Of a stretch of 26,868 nucleotides of DNA, positions 5,538 to 11,077 are shown in pieces. The position numbers and the translations under genes were made by a program. Origin of the DNA: a virus; the IMG/VR virus record IMGVR_UViG_3300027816_000349, positions 1 through 26,868 of that record. One strand, 5' to 3'. The notes below the pieces were generated by a model, which saw only the letters and a program-made list of their open reading frames with translations, made no database searches and was not told the origin of the DNA. How positions within the stretch are numbered: the first letter of the stretch is position 1; the number at the start of each line of letters is the position of its first letter.

Positions 5538-5783
5538 TTAGTCTCCCGCCCAGCGGACACCAGAGCGCCCAAGCCTAGTATTAATACTGAACTCCATATC
5601 ATTGGCTAGTCTGCACAGCTTTTCATTATCAGACTCTTCATCGTCTAATGGAATAAAGCCAGCAAATGGAACTGGCTCTGTATTCGCACAATGGTGGATC
5701 TCATCAATGGGCAACCGCTCTCCGCAATGCTCACAACTATTACGCATCGCTTCTTCTCTATCTTCAGTCGTAAACGTGGTCAT
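5538..5783 (-). CDS. Small zinc-finger-like protein (81 aa)
   Basis: CEHCGERLPIDEIHHC, near the N-terminus, has CxxC and HHC spaced like a treble-clef or zinc-ribbon site. A consensus GAGGAG lies six bases before the ATG at 5783, which makes that ATG a better start than the GTG at 5786. The 16-bp palindrome at 5802-5817 lies in its leader, so it may begin its own transcript after the small terminase. It may be a DNA-binding or protein-binding regulator; the function is unknown. Confidence 0.65.
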   Translation of the reverse strand: MTTFTTEDREEAMRNSCEHCGERLPIDEIHHCANTEPVPFAGFIPLDDEESDNEKLCRLANDMEFSINTRLGRSGVRWAGD

Positions 5784-5801
5784 CACAATCTCCTCAGTTA
5801 A

Positions 5802-5817
5802 ATAGCGATATCGCTAT
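5802..5817. promoter_or_regulatory. Perfect 16-bp palindrome ATAGCGATATCGCTAT, candidate operator
   Basis: The palindrome is perfect and lies 19 bases upstream of the zinc-finger ATG (5783), just before its Shine-Dalgarno. Its 14-bp core TAGCGATATCGCTA recurs exactly at 9678-9691 upstream of the serine recombinase gene. Shared flanking bases (TATT, AAC) on the gene-proximal side give the two sites matching orientation toward their genes. A dimeric DNA-binding protein is the simplest reader. Confidence 0.6.
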
Positions 5818-5863
5818 AAACGAGATTCTTTCCTAAAAAAATAGAAAAGTAAAGGGGTTGTTG

Positions 5864-6286
5864 TTATTTTATTTCTACGTCTTCAATATCGGGTGGCTTG
5901 ATATTGATGCCGATAACCGATGGCTTATCTGAATCCTCTGGGCTATCAAGCAATCCAGAGGCTTTGGCTAGTAGGCGCAACACTCCAACCTTATCGTACA
6001 GCTCTAACTCTAGATTACCATCCTTATTAACCTTAATACTGCGGATGGCTTGCAGAGCGTGTTCTGGAATATCCTTAGATGCCTTGACTTGGATGTTGCC
6101 TTGGTCATCCCACTCCATAATATCCGTAATCTTGGTGTTGGCCATACAGAGTAGGCTATAAGCCACCGCCTCCTTGTTCTCCATAATGGTAGCGGAGCGC
6201 TCTAACCTCTTCTGTATAGACCGAATCCCACCCCAATTCTGCATGGAGGGGATCTGCGTACTTAGATTTGACTTAACTCTAGCCAT
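5864..6286 (-). CDS. terS: Terminase small subunit-like protein (140 aa)
   Basis: The middle and C-terminal parts follow the pattern of small terminases: ITDIMEWDDQGNIQVKASKD, then a segment with IPEHALQAIRSIK, NLELELYDKVGVLRLLAKAS and GLLD. In known TerS proteins the same order is seen (DI.DFVEWD..., ...I.S.K..., ..I.L.DK..AL..L.....L). TerS recognises viral DNA and hands it to TerL. The N-terminal DNA-binding segment (about 1-50) is basic but less clear. The ATG overlaps the SSB-like gene's stop (TGATG). It is unusual that it sits in the early block, 2.2 kb from terL. Confidence 0.75.
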   Translation of the reverse strand: MARVKSNLSTQIPSMQNWGGIRSIQKRLERSATIMENKEAVAYSLLCMANTKITDIMEWDDQGNIQVKASKDIPEHALQAIRSIKVNKDGNLELELYDKVGVLRLLAKASGLLDSPEDSDKPSVIGINIKPPDIEDVEIK

Positions 6287-6537
6287 CAGAATGGAATATC
6301 GCTATCTGACTTTGGCATCTCATCGTTGCCACGAGGGGTAAAACCAGCTTGCTTGGGCTTACCGATCTTACCGGCTAGGTACTTCTTGCCTGTCTTAGCC
6401 TGTTTCTCATACGCATTGAACCAATACTCGATGCCATCAGCTAACTTGATGGATCCTGTCCAATCCGCATCTGTTTCTCCACGCTTTCTGTCGTTAACGA
6501 ATAGCGTAAAGCTACCTTCTTTCATTTCATATTTCAT
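6286..6537 (-). CDS. SSB-like protein (DUF736-type) with an SSB-type acidic tail (83 aa)
   Basis: The core (KEGSFTLFVNDRKRGETDAD, TGSIKLADGIEYWFNAYEKQ, KTGKKYLAGKIGKPK) is an OB-fold-like beta pattern close to DUF736-type small proteins, proposed to act like single-strand binding proteins. The C-terminus is SDSDIPF, matching the D-D-I-P-F tip that bacterial SSB uses to recruit host repair and replication proteins. It probably coats ssDNA and docks host enzymes. A GAGGAG motif lies six bases before the ATG. The function is inferred from fold pattern, tail and replication context. Confidence 0.7.
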   Translation of the reverse strand: MKYEMKEGSFTLFVNDRKRGETDADWTGSIKLADGIEYWFNAYEKQAKTGKKYLAGKIGKPKQAGFTPRGNDEMPKSDSDIPF

Positions 6538-6551
6538 TTATTGCTCCTCAC

Positions 6552-6722
6552 TTATGGTTTAAATTTACTTTCTTCAATTGCCTCTACTACGTTTGCTGAC
6601 TCCGACAGTCTCTGAGACTCCACTATCATTGCATGAATAACTGCTTGTAGGGAGAAACCCTGTCTCAGTAAGCCAAGACTACAACTGTGCAACTCTCGTT
6701 TCAACTTCTCTTGCTCTTCCAT
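6552..6722 (-). CDS. Small helical protein of unknown function (56 aa)
   Basis: The ORF encodes MEEQEKLKRELHSCSLGLLR, followed by helical sequence ending EESKFKP. GAGGAG lies seven bases before the ATG, and the start abuts the stop of the 14-codon ORF (TAAATG). It is probably all-alpha and soluble, with one Cys. It sits directly before the SSB-like gene, so it is likely part of the replication operon. No family is recognised. Confidence 0.55.
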   Translation of the reverse strand: MEEQEKLKRELHSCSLGLLRQGFSLQAVIHAMIVESQRLSESANVVEAIEESKFKP

Positions 6723-6767
6723 TTACTCGCTCCTCTCGTAAAAGTAATTGTCTGCGACTAATTCCAT
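6723..6767 (-). CDS. 14-codon ORF with a near-perfect Shine-Dalgarno
   Basis: The ORF encodes MELVADNYFYERSE. AAGGAGG, the strongest kind of ribosome-binding site, lies four bases before its ATG. Its TAA stop is followed at once by the ATG of the 56-aa gene. It may be a leader peptide or a ribosome loader for the downstream genes, or a genuine micro-protein. It is one of the best Shine-Dalgarno sequences in the window, which is hard to explain if nothing is translated. Confidence 0.5.
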   Translation of the reverse strand: MELVADNYFYERSE

Positions 6768-6776
6768 GTTGCCTCC

Positions 6777-6959
6777 TTAAAAAAGTGGGGAAAAATTGAG
6801 TGGTACACCCCGCCCATAGTGGCAAGGGTGGGGGGAGAGGTATGCCACTCGCTGGCAGACCGCCTCTGGCCAAGCGCAGAGGGCATCTTGCTTTCTGTAT
6901 ACACACCCACCTCTGCCTGTGCCGTATGCATACCACCGATTGGGTACGTTACAAGCCAT
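6777..6959 (-). CDS. Doubtful Cys-rich ORF (60 aa)
   Basis: The reading frame begins MACNVPNRWYAYGTGRGGCV and contains five Cys, some within CAWPEAVC, and aromatic residues. It overlaps the 3' end of the replication gene by 11 bases and stops just before the next strong Shine-Dalgarno. There is no ribosome-binding site before ATG 6959 nor before the alternative TTG at 6971, and the DNA here is unusually GC-rich and hairpin-forming. It may be a small Zn-binding protein, but a structured non-coding leader for the SSB operon is an equal possibility. Confidence 0.3.
   Translation of the reverse strand: MACNVPNRWYAYGTGRGGCVYRKQDALCAWPEAVCQRVAYLSPHPCHYGRGVPLNFSPLF
6843..6882 (-). other. Two adjacent stem-loops in a GC-rich island
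   Basis: TGCCA/TGGCA (6843-6847 with 6853-6857, 5-base loop) and CCTCTG/CAGAGG (6863-6868 with 6877-6882, 8-base loop) form two neighbouring hairpins between the replication gene and the micro-ORF. The surrounding 6778-6948 segment is far richer in G/C runs than its neighbours. There is no U-tract, so it is not a typical intrinsic terminator. Confidence 0.4.
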
Positions 6960-7668
6960 GGCTGTAGTCAATGATGGAGGCTGGTCGCTCTGGTCTGGCT
7001 CTCAACCACAGCTCCAGGTCATGTGCGAACTGCTCATTGGTTAAACCTATCGATTCCGCAACCTCGATAGCCTTCATGTCTAGTTCATTTATTGTTTTCT
7101 TGTCTTTATATATTTTTCCATATAAGAGACTAACTATCTCCAACTTGCTGTTATAAGCCAATATCTCTTCATCATTGCTCTCAACCACTCGCTTGCTATC
7201 CACATATTCCCCAAGTGTTTTCACAGCCTTAGCGCTCGTTTTAGACCCCTTCTTAGCCATCTCTCTCTCCTCTTTCAAAATCATGTATGGACTTCTTCCA
7301 TCCTCAGTATTCAATGCCAACGCATCAGCCAATGAGATATCTTCGTTATAAACAATCCTCATGGTTGATGTGTGGCTCATTCGTGCGCCCTTGGTTAGCC
7401 GATCAACGTAGTTCTTCTCTCTTAACTTCGTCATCTGGGCGGTAATGGTTCTGCGACTGACTCCCAGATCCTTAGCCAATCTCTCTTGACCAACCCAAGT
7501 AATCCCGCTCCTGTTCGCATAGGCACACACCATGCAAAGAACTCTGAGCGCCCCAAGACTCAGGCTCTTATCCATCACAGCTCGCAATGGCACTATCGCT
7601 ATCTGCCTTCGATCTTGTGGCTTTGGTTTTAACCTAATCTTAGGTTTCTTTGGGATATCAAAATTCAT
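6949..7668 (-). CDS. Winged-helix replication-initiator-like protein (239 aa)
   Basis: Residues about 35-105 form a winged HTH: SLGALRVLCMVCAYANRSG, then WVGQERLAKDLGVSRRTITA and a following recognition/wing segment ending RIVYN. The first 30 residues are Lys/Pro-rich and basic. Phage replication proteins and plasmid Rep-like proteins often have this N-terminal wHTH followed by a variable helical C-terminus, here rich in Lys/Glu (about 130-239). It probably recognises an origin or acts as a regulator. No helicase loader motif or ATPase loop is present. It heads the SSB/terS operon. Confidence 0.6.
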   Translation of the reverse strand: MNFDIPKKPKIRLKPKPQDRRQIAIVPLRAVMDKSLSLGALRVLCMVCAYANRSGITWVGQERLAKDLGVSRRTITAQMTKLREKNYVDRLTKGARMSHTSTMRIVYNEDISLADALALNTEDGRSPYMILKEEREMAKKGSKTSAKAVKTLGEYVDSKRVVESNDEEILAYNSKLEIVSLLYGKIYKDKKTINELDMKAIEVAESIGLTNEQFAHDLELWLRARPERPASIIDYSHGL

Positions 7669-7680
7669 TTGAATAGAACC

Positions 7681-7884
7681 TCACCCGCTTATATAAGCGA
7701 GATATCTCTTTCGAGAGTGTCTATCGTTTATCGCCATGCTTAGGCTATTCGCCATCACAATGCTAGGCCCGATCTCTTCGATGGTCATCCCTTGTGATTC
7801 AGCTGCGTTTATCTTGGTCTGGCAACACTCCATTCCAAAGGGCTGGGTTATGGCCCCGAGTTGTCTTTTTAGCAGATTAGCCAT
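7681..7884 (-). CDS. Hypothetical protein, 67 aa
   Basis: The product starts MANLLKRQLGAITQPFGMEC and ends SRKRYLAYISG, with a paired CC and no membrane segment. It overlaps the NrdR-like zinc-ribbon gene by eight bases and precedes the replication protein by 12 bases, so it belongs to the replication operon. I do not recognise it. The C-terminus (DRHSRKRY) is basic and could contact nucleic acid. Confidence 0.5.
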   Translation of the reverse strand: MANLLKRQLGAITQPFGMECCQTKINAAESQGMTIEEIGPSIVMANSLSMAINDRHSRKRYLAYISG

Positions 7885-8056
7885 GAGTTTGTAAAGGATT
7901 ATCTTTCAATTCAAATTCACCGAGTTCTACTGTCCACCACGAGCAATGACACTCCTTGCAGACCCTACGTCTTCTGATCCAGTTCTTAGTCTCATGCGCC
8001 CTCGTCTCAGCTACCTTAATCTCAAAGCTGTCACAGCCATCATTCACACAAATCAT
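7877..8056 (-). CDS. NrdR-like zinc-ribbon protein (59 aa)
   Basis: The sequence CVNDGCDSFEIKV, then ETKNWIRRRRVCKECHCSWW and TVEL matches the zinc-ribbon half of NrdR (C..C ... V..SR...... IRRRR.C..C...F.T.E), which in bacteria represses ribonucleotide reductase genes. The ATP-cone part of NrdR is absent. It may bind DNA by the ribbon alone. The start overlaps the upstream stop (ATGA), and the end overlaps the next start by eight bases. It is too short for default gene calling but well supported by motif and overlaps. Confidence 0.65.
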   Translation of the reverse strand: MICVNDGCDSFEIKVAETRAHETKNWIRRRRVCKECHCSWWTVELGEFELKDNPLQTHG

Positions 8057-8433
8057 TGCTCTTGCTTTCTCTTCCAGATATCTAACATGGCTGCGTACAA
8101 CTTAGCATAGCCAGCCTCGCCACGCACCCTTGCCACTTCCTTGAGGTACAGTTGCCGAGTTCGCTTGGATCTAAACTTTCGAAAGACCCATTTGGCCTCA
8201 CAGTACACCCTAAACTCGTCTGAATAGGATCCAACCGCTCTGCCATTCGGCAGATGAACCAGCCTTGATGTTGGGTGAACCTTACGACAAGCGAAACAGA
8301 TGGGTCGTAATACATTTATTTGCTCTCCCTCTCTGTCTTCCTTCGGTAACAATCCTTGCACATCCACCGCCTGACTCTTCCCTTTGCGCTTACTTTCCAA
8401 TTGCCACCTTCTATATGTACGCTGTATTGACAA
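8053..8433 (-). CDS. Small zinc-binding protein of unknown function; true start uncertain
   Basis: The reliable part begins around residue 40 (RPICFACRKVHPTSRLVHL) and runs to the end (YAAMLDIWKRKQEQ); CFAC and a later YCEAKW give a likely zinc site, followed by a basic helix (RKFRSKRTRQLYLKE). The first ~39 residues overlap the upstream zinc-ribbon gene in another frame and look like shadow sequence. A strong GAGGGAG sits five bases before an ATA at about 8321 and nine before an out-of-frame ATG at 8315, so the start may be ATA, an upstream GTG/TTG, or obscured by a one-base sequence error. The stop overlaps the NrdR-like gene. Confidence 0.55.
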   Translation of the reverse strand: MSIQRTYRRWQLESKRKGKSQAVDVQGLLPKEDREGEQINVLRPICFACRKVHPTSRLVHLPNGRAVGSYSDEFRVYCEAKWVFRKFRSKRTRQLYLKEVARVRGEAGYAKLYAAMLDIWKRKQEQ

Positions 8434-8510
8434 TTACTGCACCAGCGCTTGCCAGTAATACTAGACTCAGCCTTAACAGCTTTTGTGTATACATCTTTAT
8501 CGTGACTCAT
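8316..8510 (-). CDS. Zinc-ribbon protein (64 aa)
   Basis: KRWCSNCQYSVHIEGG and RRWMCKDCYRRKTE provide two CxxC pairs separated by about 25 residues, a zinc ribbon with basic flanks likely to contact nucleic acid. The start overlaps the GNAT gene's stop (ATGA). It is one of three successive overlapping zinc-ribbon genes (this, 8053 and 7877). The function is unknown. Confidence 0.65.
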   Translation of the reverse strand: MSHDKDVYTKAVKAESSITGKRWCSNCQYSVHIEGGNWKVSAKGRVRRWMCKDCYRRKTERESK

Positions 8511-9049
8511 ATGGCAATTACCACATCATTCTTTGGAACAATTAAACCAGAGCTGGTTTGAAATAAACCATAACTTTGGTATTGATATAAATTAACAATT
8601 CTTTTGCTGGTTTGTTTCCAGGTATTTTTATAACTAATACCAAACCTTTCCCCAAACTTGGTCCATCCCATCTGCTGCCAAAAGAAGTTGCTGGCCAAGT
8701 CATTCGCACAGCCACAAGCAAAGTCTTGTATGCCACGCAAATTACCATGTGATATCGCAGCTGAGAGCAGCGCTTTGCCACGCTCTAAAAGCCTGGCATC
8801 AGACTGTATTGCTATCTGGTTGCACTTTGCAACCTTGCCATAAGAAAACAGCACAAACCCAACCGGTGTATTGTTTTCTTCGCAAATGAAAATCTTATCG
8901 TTACAAGTTGTACTCCAGCGTTTGCCTGTCTTGTGGCCTGTAATGGCCGCTGTATAAGCTGGCTTTGGAATAAACCCCAAAGATAAAGATTCTTTCTTTG
9001 CCAAGTCAACTATGTATGGCACGTCTTCAAGAGTTGCTGAACGAATCAT
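8507..9049 (-). CDS. GNAT-family N-acetyltransferase (180 aa)
   Basis: The N-terminus IRSATLEDVPYIVDLAKKES is a typical GNAT opening. DKIFICEENNTPVGFVLFSY forms the beta2-beta3 hairpin, SDARLLERGKALLSAAI (about 83-99) fits the acetyl-CoA loop and helix, and ANDLASNFFWQQMGWTKFGE fits motif B. The enzyme moves an acetyl group from acetyl-CoA to an unknown amine. It sits between rusA and the zinc-ribbon genes with four-base overlaps at both ends. Phage GNATs may modify host proteins or toxins; the target is unknown. The C-terminus after ~140 is less family-like. Confidence 0.8.
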   Translation of the reverse strand: MIRSATLEDVPYIVDLAKKESLSLGFIPKPAYTAAITGHKTGKRWSTTCNDKIFICEENNTPVGFVLFSYGKVAKCNQIAIQSDARLLERGKALLSAAISHGNLRGIQDFACGCANDLASNFFWQQMGWTKFGERFGISYKNTWKQTSKRIVNLYQYQSYGLFQTSSGLIVPKNDVVIAI

Positions 9050-9399
9050 TTAATCTCTTCAATCATTACTTTGATAGAGCCACCCGGCACAATGTGTGAG
9101 CCACGATAGATCGACAGCTCATCGATCTGTGAGTCATCATCAAACAGGCCAGCATCTTGCAAGCTGTCTAACACGCTCTTGATGCGGTTATCGATATCGA
9201 ATGCTCGCTTATCTCGTGGCCATACAACCATGCTGACAGACAGTCTCTTGTTGCCCATCTTTGGGAAGTCTCCGCCAGAGATGTACTCAGCCACAGCTTG
9301 CTTGTACTCTCGCCCAGCCTTACTCATGTAGGTAGCATGAGCTCCCCTACGATAGTAAGTGTTGACCGATGGCGGGAACGGCAACTCTAGGACAATCAC
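9046..9399 (-). CDS. rusA: RusA-type Holliday junction resolvase
   Basis: The 117-aa protein has PFPPSVNTYY at the start and the catalytic block RAFDIDNRIKSVLDSLQDAG then LFDDDSQIDEL, where Asp68, Asp70 and one of Asp87-89 match the metal-binding aspartates of RusA. The enzyme cuts four-way junctions made during recombination and replication, before packaging. The length is normal. The start codon is GTG, overlapping the stop of the ribbon-helix-helix gene (GTGA). Confidence 0.92.
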   Translation of the reverse strand: MIVLELPFPPSVNTYYRRGAHATYMSKAGREYKQAVAEYISGGDFPKMGNKRLSVSMVVWPRDKRAFDIDNRIKSVLDSLQDAGLFDDDSQIDELSIYRGSHIVPGGSIKVMIEEIK

Positions 9400-9569
9400 G
9401 CAAGCATCTTGTTTAGACGTTGCGATAGGTCTCCATTCTTCGACAGAGAAGACCGCAGTTCATCATTAATGATTACAGCGATGGGCTTATTGCGCTGTTG
9501 GGCAGTCTGTTCTAACAAGGTTCTAACATCTGGGCGCAAGCGCACTAGGAATGGCTTTAATTCGGTCAT
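9396..9569 (-). CDS. Arc/CopG-like ribbon-helix-helix protein (57 aa)
   Basis: FLVRLRPDVRTLLEQTAQQR (about residues 7-26) is followed by NKPIAVIINDELRSSL, a beta-strand then two helices as in Arc/MetJ repressors, whose dimers insert a beta ribbon into the major groove. AAGG lies six bases before the ATG. It is the first gene of the minus-strand early block, facing the divergent control region, so it is a good candidate for the regulator of that region, including the palindromes at 9678 and 5802. This is inference from fold and place. Confidence 0.65.
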   Translation of the reverse strand: MTELKPFLVRLRPDVRTLLEQTAQQRNKPIAVIINDELRSSLSKNGDLSQRLNKMLA

Positions 9570-9647
9570 TGTTTGCCTTATTTGGTTGAGATATCTGATT
9601 GTAGACTAAATATAGCGTAATAAGATTAGGGTAAACACCTACTATTA

Positions 9648-9663
9648 AAACTAGATATAGTTT
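9648..9663. repeat. Inverted repeat AAACTA-N4-TAGTTT
   Basis: This is a perfect 6-bp inverted repeat around GATA in the divergent control region, 15 bases from the larger palindrome. It is a candidate second operator; the arms are short. Confidence 0.35.
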
Positions 9664-9677
9664 GGTATATTCATTCC

Positions 9678-9691
9678 TAGCGATATCGCTA
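9678..9691. promoter_or_regulatory. Perfect palindrome TAGCGATATCGCTA, second copy
   Basis: It is identical over 14 bp to the palindrome upstream of the zinc-finger gene (5803-5816), followed on its gene-proximal side by TT/AAC as in the other copy. It sits 27 bases before the serine recombinase ATG. It could be an operator or, less likely, a recombinase half-site pair. Confidence 0.6.
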
Positions 9692-9718
9692 TTAACCACC
9701 GAGACACAGGAGTTAACT

Positions 9719-10369
9719 ATGTTTGTAACCTACTACAGAGTATCAACACAACGTCAAGGCCAATCAGGTCTTGGCTTAGAGGCACAGCGTTCTGCCGTAC
9801 AGGCTTACCTTGCTGGCAAAGAAATCATTGCAGAGTTTACTGAGGTTGAGTCTGGCCGTAAGAACAATCGCCCACAGCTGGCAGCAGCTCTTGCATTGGC
9901 TAAGAAACAGAAAGCCACACTCGTTATTGCCAAGCTGGATCGTCTTGCTCGTAATGTGCATTTCATCTCTGGCTTACTTGAGTCTAACGTGCAGTTCGTA
10001 GCAGCTGATATGCCAGAGGCAGACCGCACATTCCTACAGATGGCTGCTGTGTTTGCTGAGTGGGAGGCTCGCAAAATATCTGAGCGTACTAAGCTGGCTC
10101 TTGCAGAGGCAAAACTGCGTGGCACAAAATTAGGCTCACCATCCCCACACATTGGATCAAAGGCTGGCCTAAAGGCTATCAACGATAGATGCAATGTTTA
10201 TTTAGAAAACATCTCACCAATTTTGCAAGATATCGTTGGTGACGTAGGCTTTAATTTAAGAGCCATTGCTGCTAGGTTGCAAAGACGTGGTATCAAAACC
10301 GCTAAAGGTTTAGATGTATGGCATCCCGCCCAAGTAGGAAAACTTTTGAGAAAGGTTCAATATGCTTGA
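9719..10369 (+). CDS. Small serine recombinase (resolvase/invertase family)
   Basis: The 216-aa product has the catalytic core: YYRVST with Ser9 nucleophile and Arg7, LVIAKLDRLAR (about 68-78), and the E-helix MAAVFAEWEARKISERTK (about 108-125), followed by a C-terminal HTH (FNLRAIAARLQRRGIKTAKG). These enzymes cut and rejoin paired sites to resolve or invert DNA. The length fits the resolvase group, not large serine integrases. The ATG at 9719 is chosen over upstream alternatives because AGGAG lies six bases before it. It heads the recombination operon; the next gene starts inside its last codons. Confidence 0.88.
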   Translation: MFVTYYRVSTQRQGQSGLGLEAQRSAVQAYLAGKEIIAEFTEVESGRKNNRPQLAAALALAKKQKATLVIAKLDRLARNVHFISGLLESNVQFVAADMPEADRTFLQMAAVFAEWEARKISERTKLALAEAKLRGTKLGSPSPHIGSKAGLKAINDRCNVYLENISPILQDIVGDVGFNLRAIAARLQRRGIKTAKGLDVWHPAQVGKLLRKVQYA

Positions 10370-10671: not shown

Positions 10672-10845
10672 ATGTCAACCATATACGACATCAATAAGCA
10701 TTATGTGCCATCGCAGAAGACAGATGTGATGGCCACATTTATCAAGCATGGATTCCAGCCCCCATCCGAGTGCAGCAAGACTCAAAAGAAATGGGAAATC
10801 TACCGCAACCTTTTATCAAGGAACGAAAAACGTGAGCAAAAATGA
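10672..10845 (+). CDS. Small hypothetical protein (57 aa)
   Basis: Starts MSTIYDINKHYVPSQKTDVM and ends SRNEKREQK; AAGGAG lies five bases before the ATG. It is basic at the C-terminus and has no membrane segment. It overlaps the next gene's GTG by 14 bases. The family is not recognised. Confidence 0.5.
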   Translation: MSTIYDINKHYVPSQKTDVMATFIKHGFQPPSECSKTQKKWEIYRNLLSRNEKREQK

Positions 10846-11077
10846 TACGCAACTTCAAACAATACTGGCCCATCTCAAGCAAAAGAAAGCTCGTGGTATT
10901 ACTTCTTGGGATGCTATTAGCACCTATGGTATTACTCGCCTGGCACACTACATACACCTACTTAGAGCAAGCGGTTATCGAATTGCTGACCAGTACGAGC
11001 ATGAGCCAGACAACCGAACCCACAAGTGGAAACGCTACTGGCTTACAAGTTCACCAAAAGCTGTAGCCAAAAAATAA
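10832..11077 (+). CDS. HTH-domain protein (HTH_39-like), 81 aa
   Basis: The core, GITSWDAISTYGITRLAHYI then HLLRASGYRIADQYEHE, fits the small phage helix-turn-helix type with I...A...G..RLA..I..LR..G. The GTG at 10832 has AAGGA nine bases before it and is preferred over an in-frame upstream ATG at 10748 that lies inside the previous gene. It may regulate the recombination operon. Confidence 0.65.
   Translation: MSKNDTQLQTILAHLKQKKARGITSWDAISTYGITRLAHYIHLLRASGYRIADQYEHEPDNRTHKWKRYWLTSSPKAVAKK

Follow-up and report, generated by a model that had tools for sequence, protein, structure and literature searches.

A conserved palindrome at three putative promoters as a likely operator of a small ribbon-helix-helix protein in a family of uncultured phages

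The window analysed here is a complete virus record of 26,868 bases (IMG/VR record IMGVR_UViG_3300027816_000349, designated G000) from a distant relative of Methylophilales phage MEP301. It carries two exact copies of the 14-bp palindrome TAGCGATATCGCTA, at positions 5803-5816 and 9678-9691. Comparison with relatives suggests that these palindromes are probably the operators of a 57-amino-acid (57-aa) ribbon-helix-helix (RHH) repressor acting at three promoters: its own, the divergent rightward promoter PR, and a leftward promoter downstream of terS, termed P2. Phage RHH autorepressors are known as a kind, and it is the three-promoter regulon that would be new; among the papers listed in our literature searches we recognised none on this operator or on its regulatory role in these phages.

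The palindrome copies lie at three putative promoters

An earlier note on this DNA had described two exact, mutually inverted copies of the palindrome, each 20-30 bases before a start codon, and had seen no third copy. Both copies lie where the note placed them and their inversion is borne out by the flanks, which read CTATTTAACTGAGGAG on the minus strand and CTATTAACC...AGGAG on the plus strand. The ATG of the serine recombinase gene, at 9719, follows its site after 27 nt; for the zinc-finger gene the spacing is 16-19 nt (start at GTG 5786 or at the ATG three bases beyond). As to a third copy, the window has no further match to TAGCGATATCGCTA within 1 mismatch, but a degenerate copy, TGAGATATCTGA, is present at 9587-9598 in the leader of the RHH gene, where it abuts a TACAAT box. 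At up to 3 mismatches the window holds 6 matches against 0.84 expected, and none of 100 shuffles reached 6.

The site at 9678-9691 falls within the divergent region between the RHH gene (minus strand) and the serine recombinase gene (plus strand), and the site at 5803-5816 between the terS gene (5864-6286, minus strand) and a NinF-like zinc-finger gene on the same strand (Table 1). All three copies are at most 8 nt from a putative -10 box, and each would sit at the expected transcript start, provided that these boxes are right. The boxes rest on conservation among relatives; for P2 the comparison comprised 12 leaders, five of which came from a search of viral contigs with the 12-mer and GGAG as pattern (at least 120 stretches, with many chance matches expected, so that no counts were drawn from it).

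Table 1 Coordinates of the features discussed, in positions of the whole window
Feature	Position	Strand	Remark
Operator copy 1	9678..9691	none	Putative rightward promoter PR, about +1 to +14; exact palindrome
Operator copy 2	5803..5816	none	Putative leftward promoter P2, downstream of terS
Operator copy 3, degenerate TGAGATATCTGA	9587..9598	none	Putative RHH gene promoter
Putative extended -10 of PR, TGGTATATT	9663..9671	+	Kept 5' of the site in relatives
Putative -10 of RHH promoter, TACAAT	9598..9603	-	Abuts operator copy 3
Putative -10 of P2, AAGAAT	5825..5830	-	Weak consensus match
RHH (Arc/CopG-like) protein, 57 aa	9396..9569	-	Proposed reader and autorepressor; PHROG match and fold
Small serine recombinase, 216 aa	9719..10369	+	PR operon; PF00239, E=3.9e-28
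Winged helix-turn-helix (HTH_39) gene	10832..11077	+	Disfavoured as reader; PF14090, E=2.1e-12
Zinc-finger (NinF-like) gene	5538..5786	-	First of short P2 operon; PF05810 NinF, E=0.0025, below cut-off
Predicted RNA hairpin covering ribosome-binding site	9692..9716	+	PR leader; loop-closing pair, covariation
Second dyad, TAGGTGTTTACCCTA on minus strand	9627..9641	none	TAGG-N7-CCTA type, between the divergent promoters
Third dyad type, AACTAGATATAGTT	9649..9662	none	Just upstream of PR -10; by eye
Partner of third dyad type, ACTAAATATAGC	9605..9616	none	Upstream of RHH -10; by eye

The core is conserved at PR and P2

A scan with the recombinase provided 353 relatives, the best 80 of which were taken as loci. 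The main clade comprises 69 loci (573,115 bases), with the window added and with L055 and L066 (truncated at the site) and the ten distant loci L073-L082 left out; it includes near-duplicates, and its PR contexts reduce to 47 distinct ones. Within it the core GCGATATCGC occurs 83 times, 68 times at PR, 15 times at P2 and nowhere else, against 0.44 occurrences expected from base composition. Counting the window, the exact core is found at PR in 68 of 69 loci, and the P2 site in 14 of the 17 whose sequence extends for over 5 kb before the recombinase gene. The 14-mer, for which the earlier note had proposed a search in related phages, is therefore conserved in its core. The recombinase genes of the more distant main-clade members listed differ at about 0.4-0.6 of their 4-fold degenerate sites while the core is kept, so selection maintains the palindrome. 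Each of 22 whole records carries one to three copies of the core; one copy in each of G009, G011 and G014 lies inside a 164-aa gene, outside the 573 kb counted.

The distance from site to recombinase gene ranges from 27 to 654 nt, and one or two small genes can intervene; where they do, the site keeps its place at the promoter and not at the recombinase. In distant relatives the dyad is altered in sequence or shifted into the -35/-10 spacer. Outside the main clade the P2 site was seen in a single locus, L435, among the 20 readable ones of group 2; the main-clade P2 module of this phage, bearing GCGATATCGC downstream of terS, looks as though it arrived together with that gene.

A 57-aa RHH protein is the candidate reader

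When loci were searched by tblastn with window proteins and those reaching the gene were counted, the RHH gene was found in 59/59 main-clade loci and in 6/7 distant ones; the seventh, L074, has one too (its contig is that of L381). The protein matches an Arc-like repressor family in PHROGs (E=0.0028), whereas Pfam yielded no RHH family and one unrelated match at 0.065. AlphaFold2 modelled the monomer (pLDDT 67.7) with an extended N-terminus followed by helices at residues 13-26 and 30-44. RHH proteins led its fold matches in the PDB, with CopG (Z 6.4, 45 residues aligned, 1.5 Å), Arc (6.1) and PutA (6.0) near the top; all matches were below Z 8, where a match may mean merely a common arrangement. 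Taken together, the modelled fold and the PHROG match support the RHH label.

Further loci were taken from an RHH profile scan (the best 80 of 130 relatives) and, with a group 2 RHH protein as query, from a second one (the best 80 of 113). Among the 78 loci with at least 150 nt upstream of the RHH gene, the leader contains GATATC in 64 and TCRCnGYGA in 12, so that an operator-type dyad occupies the putative promoter of the RHH gene itself in 76/78. The 12 loci with TCRCnGYGA lack GATATC there, encode RHH proteins of 40-42% identity and have CGATGTCACCGCGACATCG at PR; the dyad is a different one at both divergent promoters.

Operator class is associated with RHH class

Across 113 distinct upstream regions, the dyad at PR was compared with the strand motif of the RHH protein. 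Proteins with FLVRL (71 regions) or FLTRL (15) are paired with CGATATCG or CGATAGCG, those with FLMRL (14) with TGTATATCGC, those with VLARL (4) with TGATATCA, and those with LVVRL (9) with TCRCnGYGA. At the RHH promoter, FLTRL loci mostly have CAATATCG.

We then scored the PR operator match out of 10 in 1,770 pairs drawn from the 60 group 2 loci in which a recombinase was matched. Where recombinases were at least 90% identical, the mean match was 9.19 for pairs of the same RHH class (296 pairs) and 5.65 for pairs of different class (43 pairs). Where recombinases were less than 70% identical, the means were 9.95 (56 pairs) and 6.16 (272 pairs), respectively. By this association, the PR operator class appears to follow the RHH strand motif rather than the recombinase sequence. 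The simplest reading of the earlier note, a shared operator with the RHH protein among its possible readers, thereby gains comparative support from both the third site in the RHH leader and the agreement of operator class with RHH class.

Several observations weigh against the RHH protein as reader of these sites. Some concern the sites themselves. A generic sigma-70 promoter scan of the window called none of the PR, RHH and P2 boxes, and found 7 promoters against 9.0 by chance. At PR, L047 is the sole main-clade locus without the exact core, having the broken dyad GAGATATCGC instead. The P2 site is missing in L031, L044 and L052, and in 19 of the 20 group 2 loci that stay readable for 220 nt past the terS match (another six end too early). 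Two of the 78 RHH leaders have neither dyad, and the GATATC of L240 may fall in an inserted gene. Confidence in the protein model, for its part, is moderate, and its alignments to Arc and CopG imply different registers at their ends, which leaves the DNA-facing strand residues ambiguous.

Other points concern the classes. VLARL comprises four regions only, and its RHH-promoter sites are TGATATCG, CGATATCA (two) and TGATATCA, which leaves TGATATCA on both sides in 1/4. The FLMRL sites at the RHH promoter contain ATATC in other flanks, with ATATC alone common to the PR site, and the LVVRL site at PR also contains CGATGTC, one mismatch from CGATATCG. For scoring, the operator was taken to be the stretch that best matched any of three cores, which had been chosen once the sequences had been inspected. 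The pairs lack independence, and RHH classes are mixed in only 2 recombinase clusters at either threshold. Rank correlations of operator match are modest (0.45 with RHH and 0.32 with recombinase; partial, 0.37 and 0.17), and the replication helix-turn-helix (HTH) protein keeps a partial correlation of 0.26 against 0.36 for RHH (666 pairs). Finally, the RHH gene is no more than a few hundred bp from both divergent sites and may travel with them as one block, a linkage that weakens the inference of RHH as reader. The P2 site, 4 kb off and with the same core, is less easily explained in this way, but beyond the main clade it was seen in L435 alone.

Other readers of the palindrome

It is also conceivable, if improbable, that the reader is some other protein of the phage or a transcription factor of its host. 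The replication HTH protein encoded at 6949-7668 is an example: its gene is present in both clades wherever loci reach it (15/15 and 3/3), and the partial correlation of 0.26 given above counts in its favour. Against such readers, the PR operator class changes together with the RHH class where the phages have almost the same recombinase gene. Both replication HTH sequences were available for a single one of the pairs listed, however, and there they differ too (0.64), which keeps the HTH protein among the candidates.

We consider it quite improbable that the serine recombinase reads the palindromes, as Tn3-type resolvases do at res sites, or recombines them and so inverts the 3.9-kb block between them. 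Tn3-type resolvases repress at their res sites and are able to repress divergent promoters, and in Tn3-family elements the serine recombinase gene likewise stands beside a divergent regulatory region with dyads. A recombinase gene also lies near the site throughout the phage family (match in 77/80 group 2 loci), and the two exact sites are inverted relative to each other. Unlike in res sites, the dyad here is short and does not track the recombinase: the PR operator differs between recombinases up to 99% identical and is the same where identity is below 70%, in pairs that are not independent. A third site in the RHH leader is also at odds with this role.

In a serine recombinase crossover site, a central dinucleotide is flanked on each side by a half-site of about 12 bp, the two being inverted, and the whole spans 26-28 bp. 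Only 10-14 bp of the dyad are conserved and the outer flanks vary; we therefore rejected it as a crossover site. All 15 loci with both sites share one arrangement, with terS opposite to the recombinase in 15/15, and the inverted arrangement was seen in none of them. The place of the site at the promoter over the variable distance to the recombinase, and its constant arrangement, speak against the recombination proposed as a bolder reading in the earlier note. The recombinase of the window itself has a match to PF07508 (residues 177-214) of 16 bits, under the cut-off of 21.1. In its passage on the MEP301 recombinase, the MEP301 paper doubts the function of that enzyme, PF07508 being missing (PMC8024684).

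The winged-HTH protein, which the earlier note had also named and which would act as a Cro-like product of the PR operon, is a very improbable reader. Its gene occurs in 58/58 main-clade loci reaching it, but in 0/8 distant and 0/51 group 2 loci (the recombinase being present in 50/51), although group 2 keeps GATATC-type dyads; replacement by a non-homologous gene, such as the 109-aa gene of L078, is conceivable. There is similarly little to recommend a role of the palindrome at the RNA level, as a 5'-terminal hairpin (AGCG-AUAU-CGCU) with a stabilising or regulatory effect on the transcripts: both the PR and the P2 RNA would start with it, and it is predicted to fold in most leaders shown, but the RHH-leader copy of the window has no predicted fold, L047 has lost the stem, and the group 2 dyad, placed by eye in the -35/-10 spacer, would be untranscribed from these promoters.

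Proposed regulation by the RHH protein

Under the preferred reading, repression by the RHH protein, the protein would bind dyads mostly centred on ATATC, over the transcription start in the main clade or in the -35/-10 spacer in group 2, and would sterically block the host sigma-70 polymerase at three promoters. The first would serve the leftward operon of the RHH gene itself and has a weak site. The second, PR, would drive the divergent rightward operon of variable early genes, the serine recombinase and RecE/Erf-type genes, and the third, P2, the short leftward operon after terS. Because the sites are perfect at PR and P2 and degenerate at the RHH gene, PR and P2 would be shut first and the RHH promoter last. 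Such graded sites would amount to delayed negative feedback on the early genes.

Arc and Mnt of phage P22 and plasmid CopG are small RHH repressors that act on their own promoter, and the window protein resembles them in size, in the putative site at its own promoter and in its predicted fold, which matches those of CopG and Arc. The difference lies in the operators: here a single dyad type recurs at three putative promoters, including a divergent pair that flanks the repressor gene, in classes that go with the protein. MEP301 (MW452941), a cultured distant relative, encodes an RHH homologue (38%) and a recombinase (39%) alongside YqaJ, ERF and terminase genes. Its record contains no GCGATATCGC but one CGATATCG, at 31661, and its RHH gene is annotated just as a hypothetical protein. 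If the proposed regulation is correct, the 57-aa gene of the window would encode the protein that represses early genes in a large family of phages, and the pairing of at least four operator types with RHH strand motifs would allow tests of RHH specificity.

A scan of genome contigs for prophages returned 41 loci. The best was a 4.5-kb contig of a Burkholderiales metagenome-assembled genome (66%), with the rest at most 58%; some of these loci may be prophages.

A leader hairpin and a variable first gene downstream of PR

Downstream of the PR site, the leader is predicted to form an RNA hairpin over the ribosome-binding site. In the main clade the loop-closing pair is C-G in 39/64 leader contexts, G-C in 25/64 and never any other. 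The 37 distinct sequences compared, which exclude the two of L035 type, have 97.3% of their cells paired, against at most 39.2% for slid versions of the hairpin. Two pairs show changes in both partners, and the outermost pair is broken in 8/37. The cells paired, the cells changed on both sides and the covariation score exceeded those of shuffled alignments (0/500), while the pairs changed on both sides and the further pair types were not above the 500 shuffles (359/500 for each).

In group 2, a hairpin with loop AGAT[GA]A[AC] is present in 79/79 leaders examined, by a search that required AGAT[GA]A, and has four Watson-Crick pairs in 78. All four pairs are changed on both sides among 16 distinct sequences, and four of the five measures lie above 500 shuffles, the further pair types not doing so (425/500). 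The hairpin covers the ribosome-binding site or lies next to it, whichever gene comes after, and its loop is conserved as AGANA in the main clade and as AGAURAM in group 2 (L369-L448). Loci such as L004, L006 and L046 have a duplicate of it before the recombinase gene.

The first gene of the PR operon is variable. In the main clade and group 1 (within L003-L082), 65 distinct leaders are followed by 22 gene clusters, and the recombinase comes first in 14. Ten cargo proteins, one each from ten of the 21 non-recombinase clusters, gave no significant Pfam match, and eight compared with PHROGs gave one match, to a family of unknown function (E=3.5e-12). An anti-defence role for these genes is a guess.

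A broader reading, which we offer tentatively as a less probable extension, is that a fixed cassette of promoter, RHH operator and ribosome-binding-site hairpin marks a hypervariable first-gene slot of interchangeable anti-defence or host-takeover genes. These would be shut off by RHH after an early burst and controlled a second time at the RNA level by the hairpin, in an RHH counterpart of Aca control whose repressor and sites have switched specificity several times in a large uncultured phage family. Aca regulators, which control anti-CRISPR operons, are small phage repressors that shut a strong early promoter before variable small genes, and the proposed shutdown would be analogous; bacterial Aca proteins, however, are HTH proteins, whereas the repressor here would be of the RHH type, and the cargo here is at most a candidate for anti-defence function. 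If this reading holds, the specificity switches would form a natural series for RHH-DNA recognition. The constant operator-leader cassette offers a means of finding variable early genes, a number of which may counteract host defences. A study of archaeal viruses reportedly used regulatory sequences to the same end (PMC11065993).

Further dyads and leader structure

The divergent region contains other dyads besides the palindrome. The TAGG-N7-CCTA type, represented in the window by TAGGTGTTTACCCTA, is present in 83/113 divergent regions, including 42/71 of the FLVRL class and some of every RHH class; as it occurs in every class, it is probably read by something other than RHH. The dyads AACTAGATATAGTT and ACTAAATATAGC are perhaps a further operator type. 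In the L031/L035 group both are replaced by CACAACATATTGTG.

A search of Rfam at the gathering threshold with five sources, certain RHH leaders among them, gave no match. These leaders, found in L032, L039, L042 and L065, are about 80 nt long and look structured: their ends are complementary (CGGATAG...CTATCCG or similar) and their interior is conserved.

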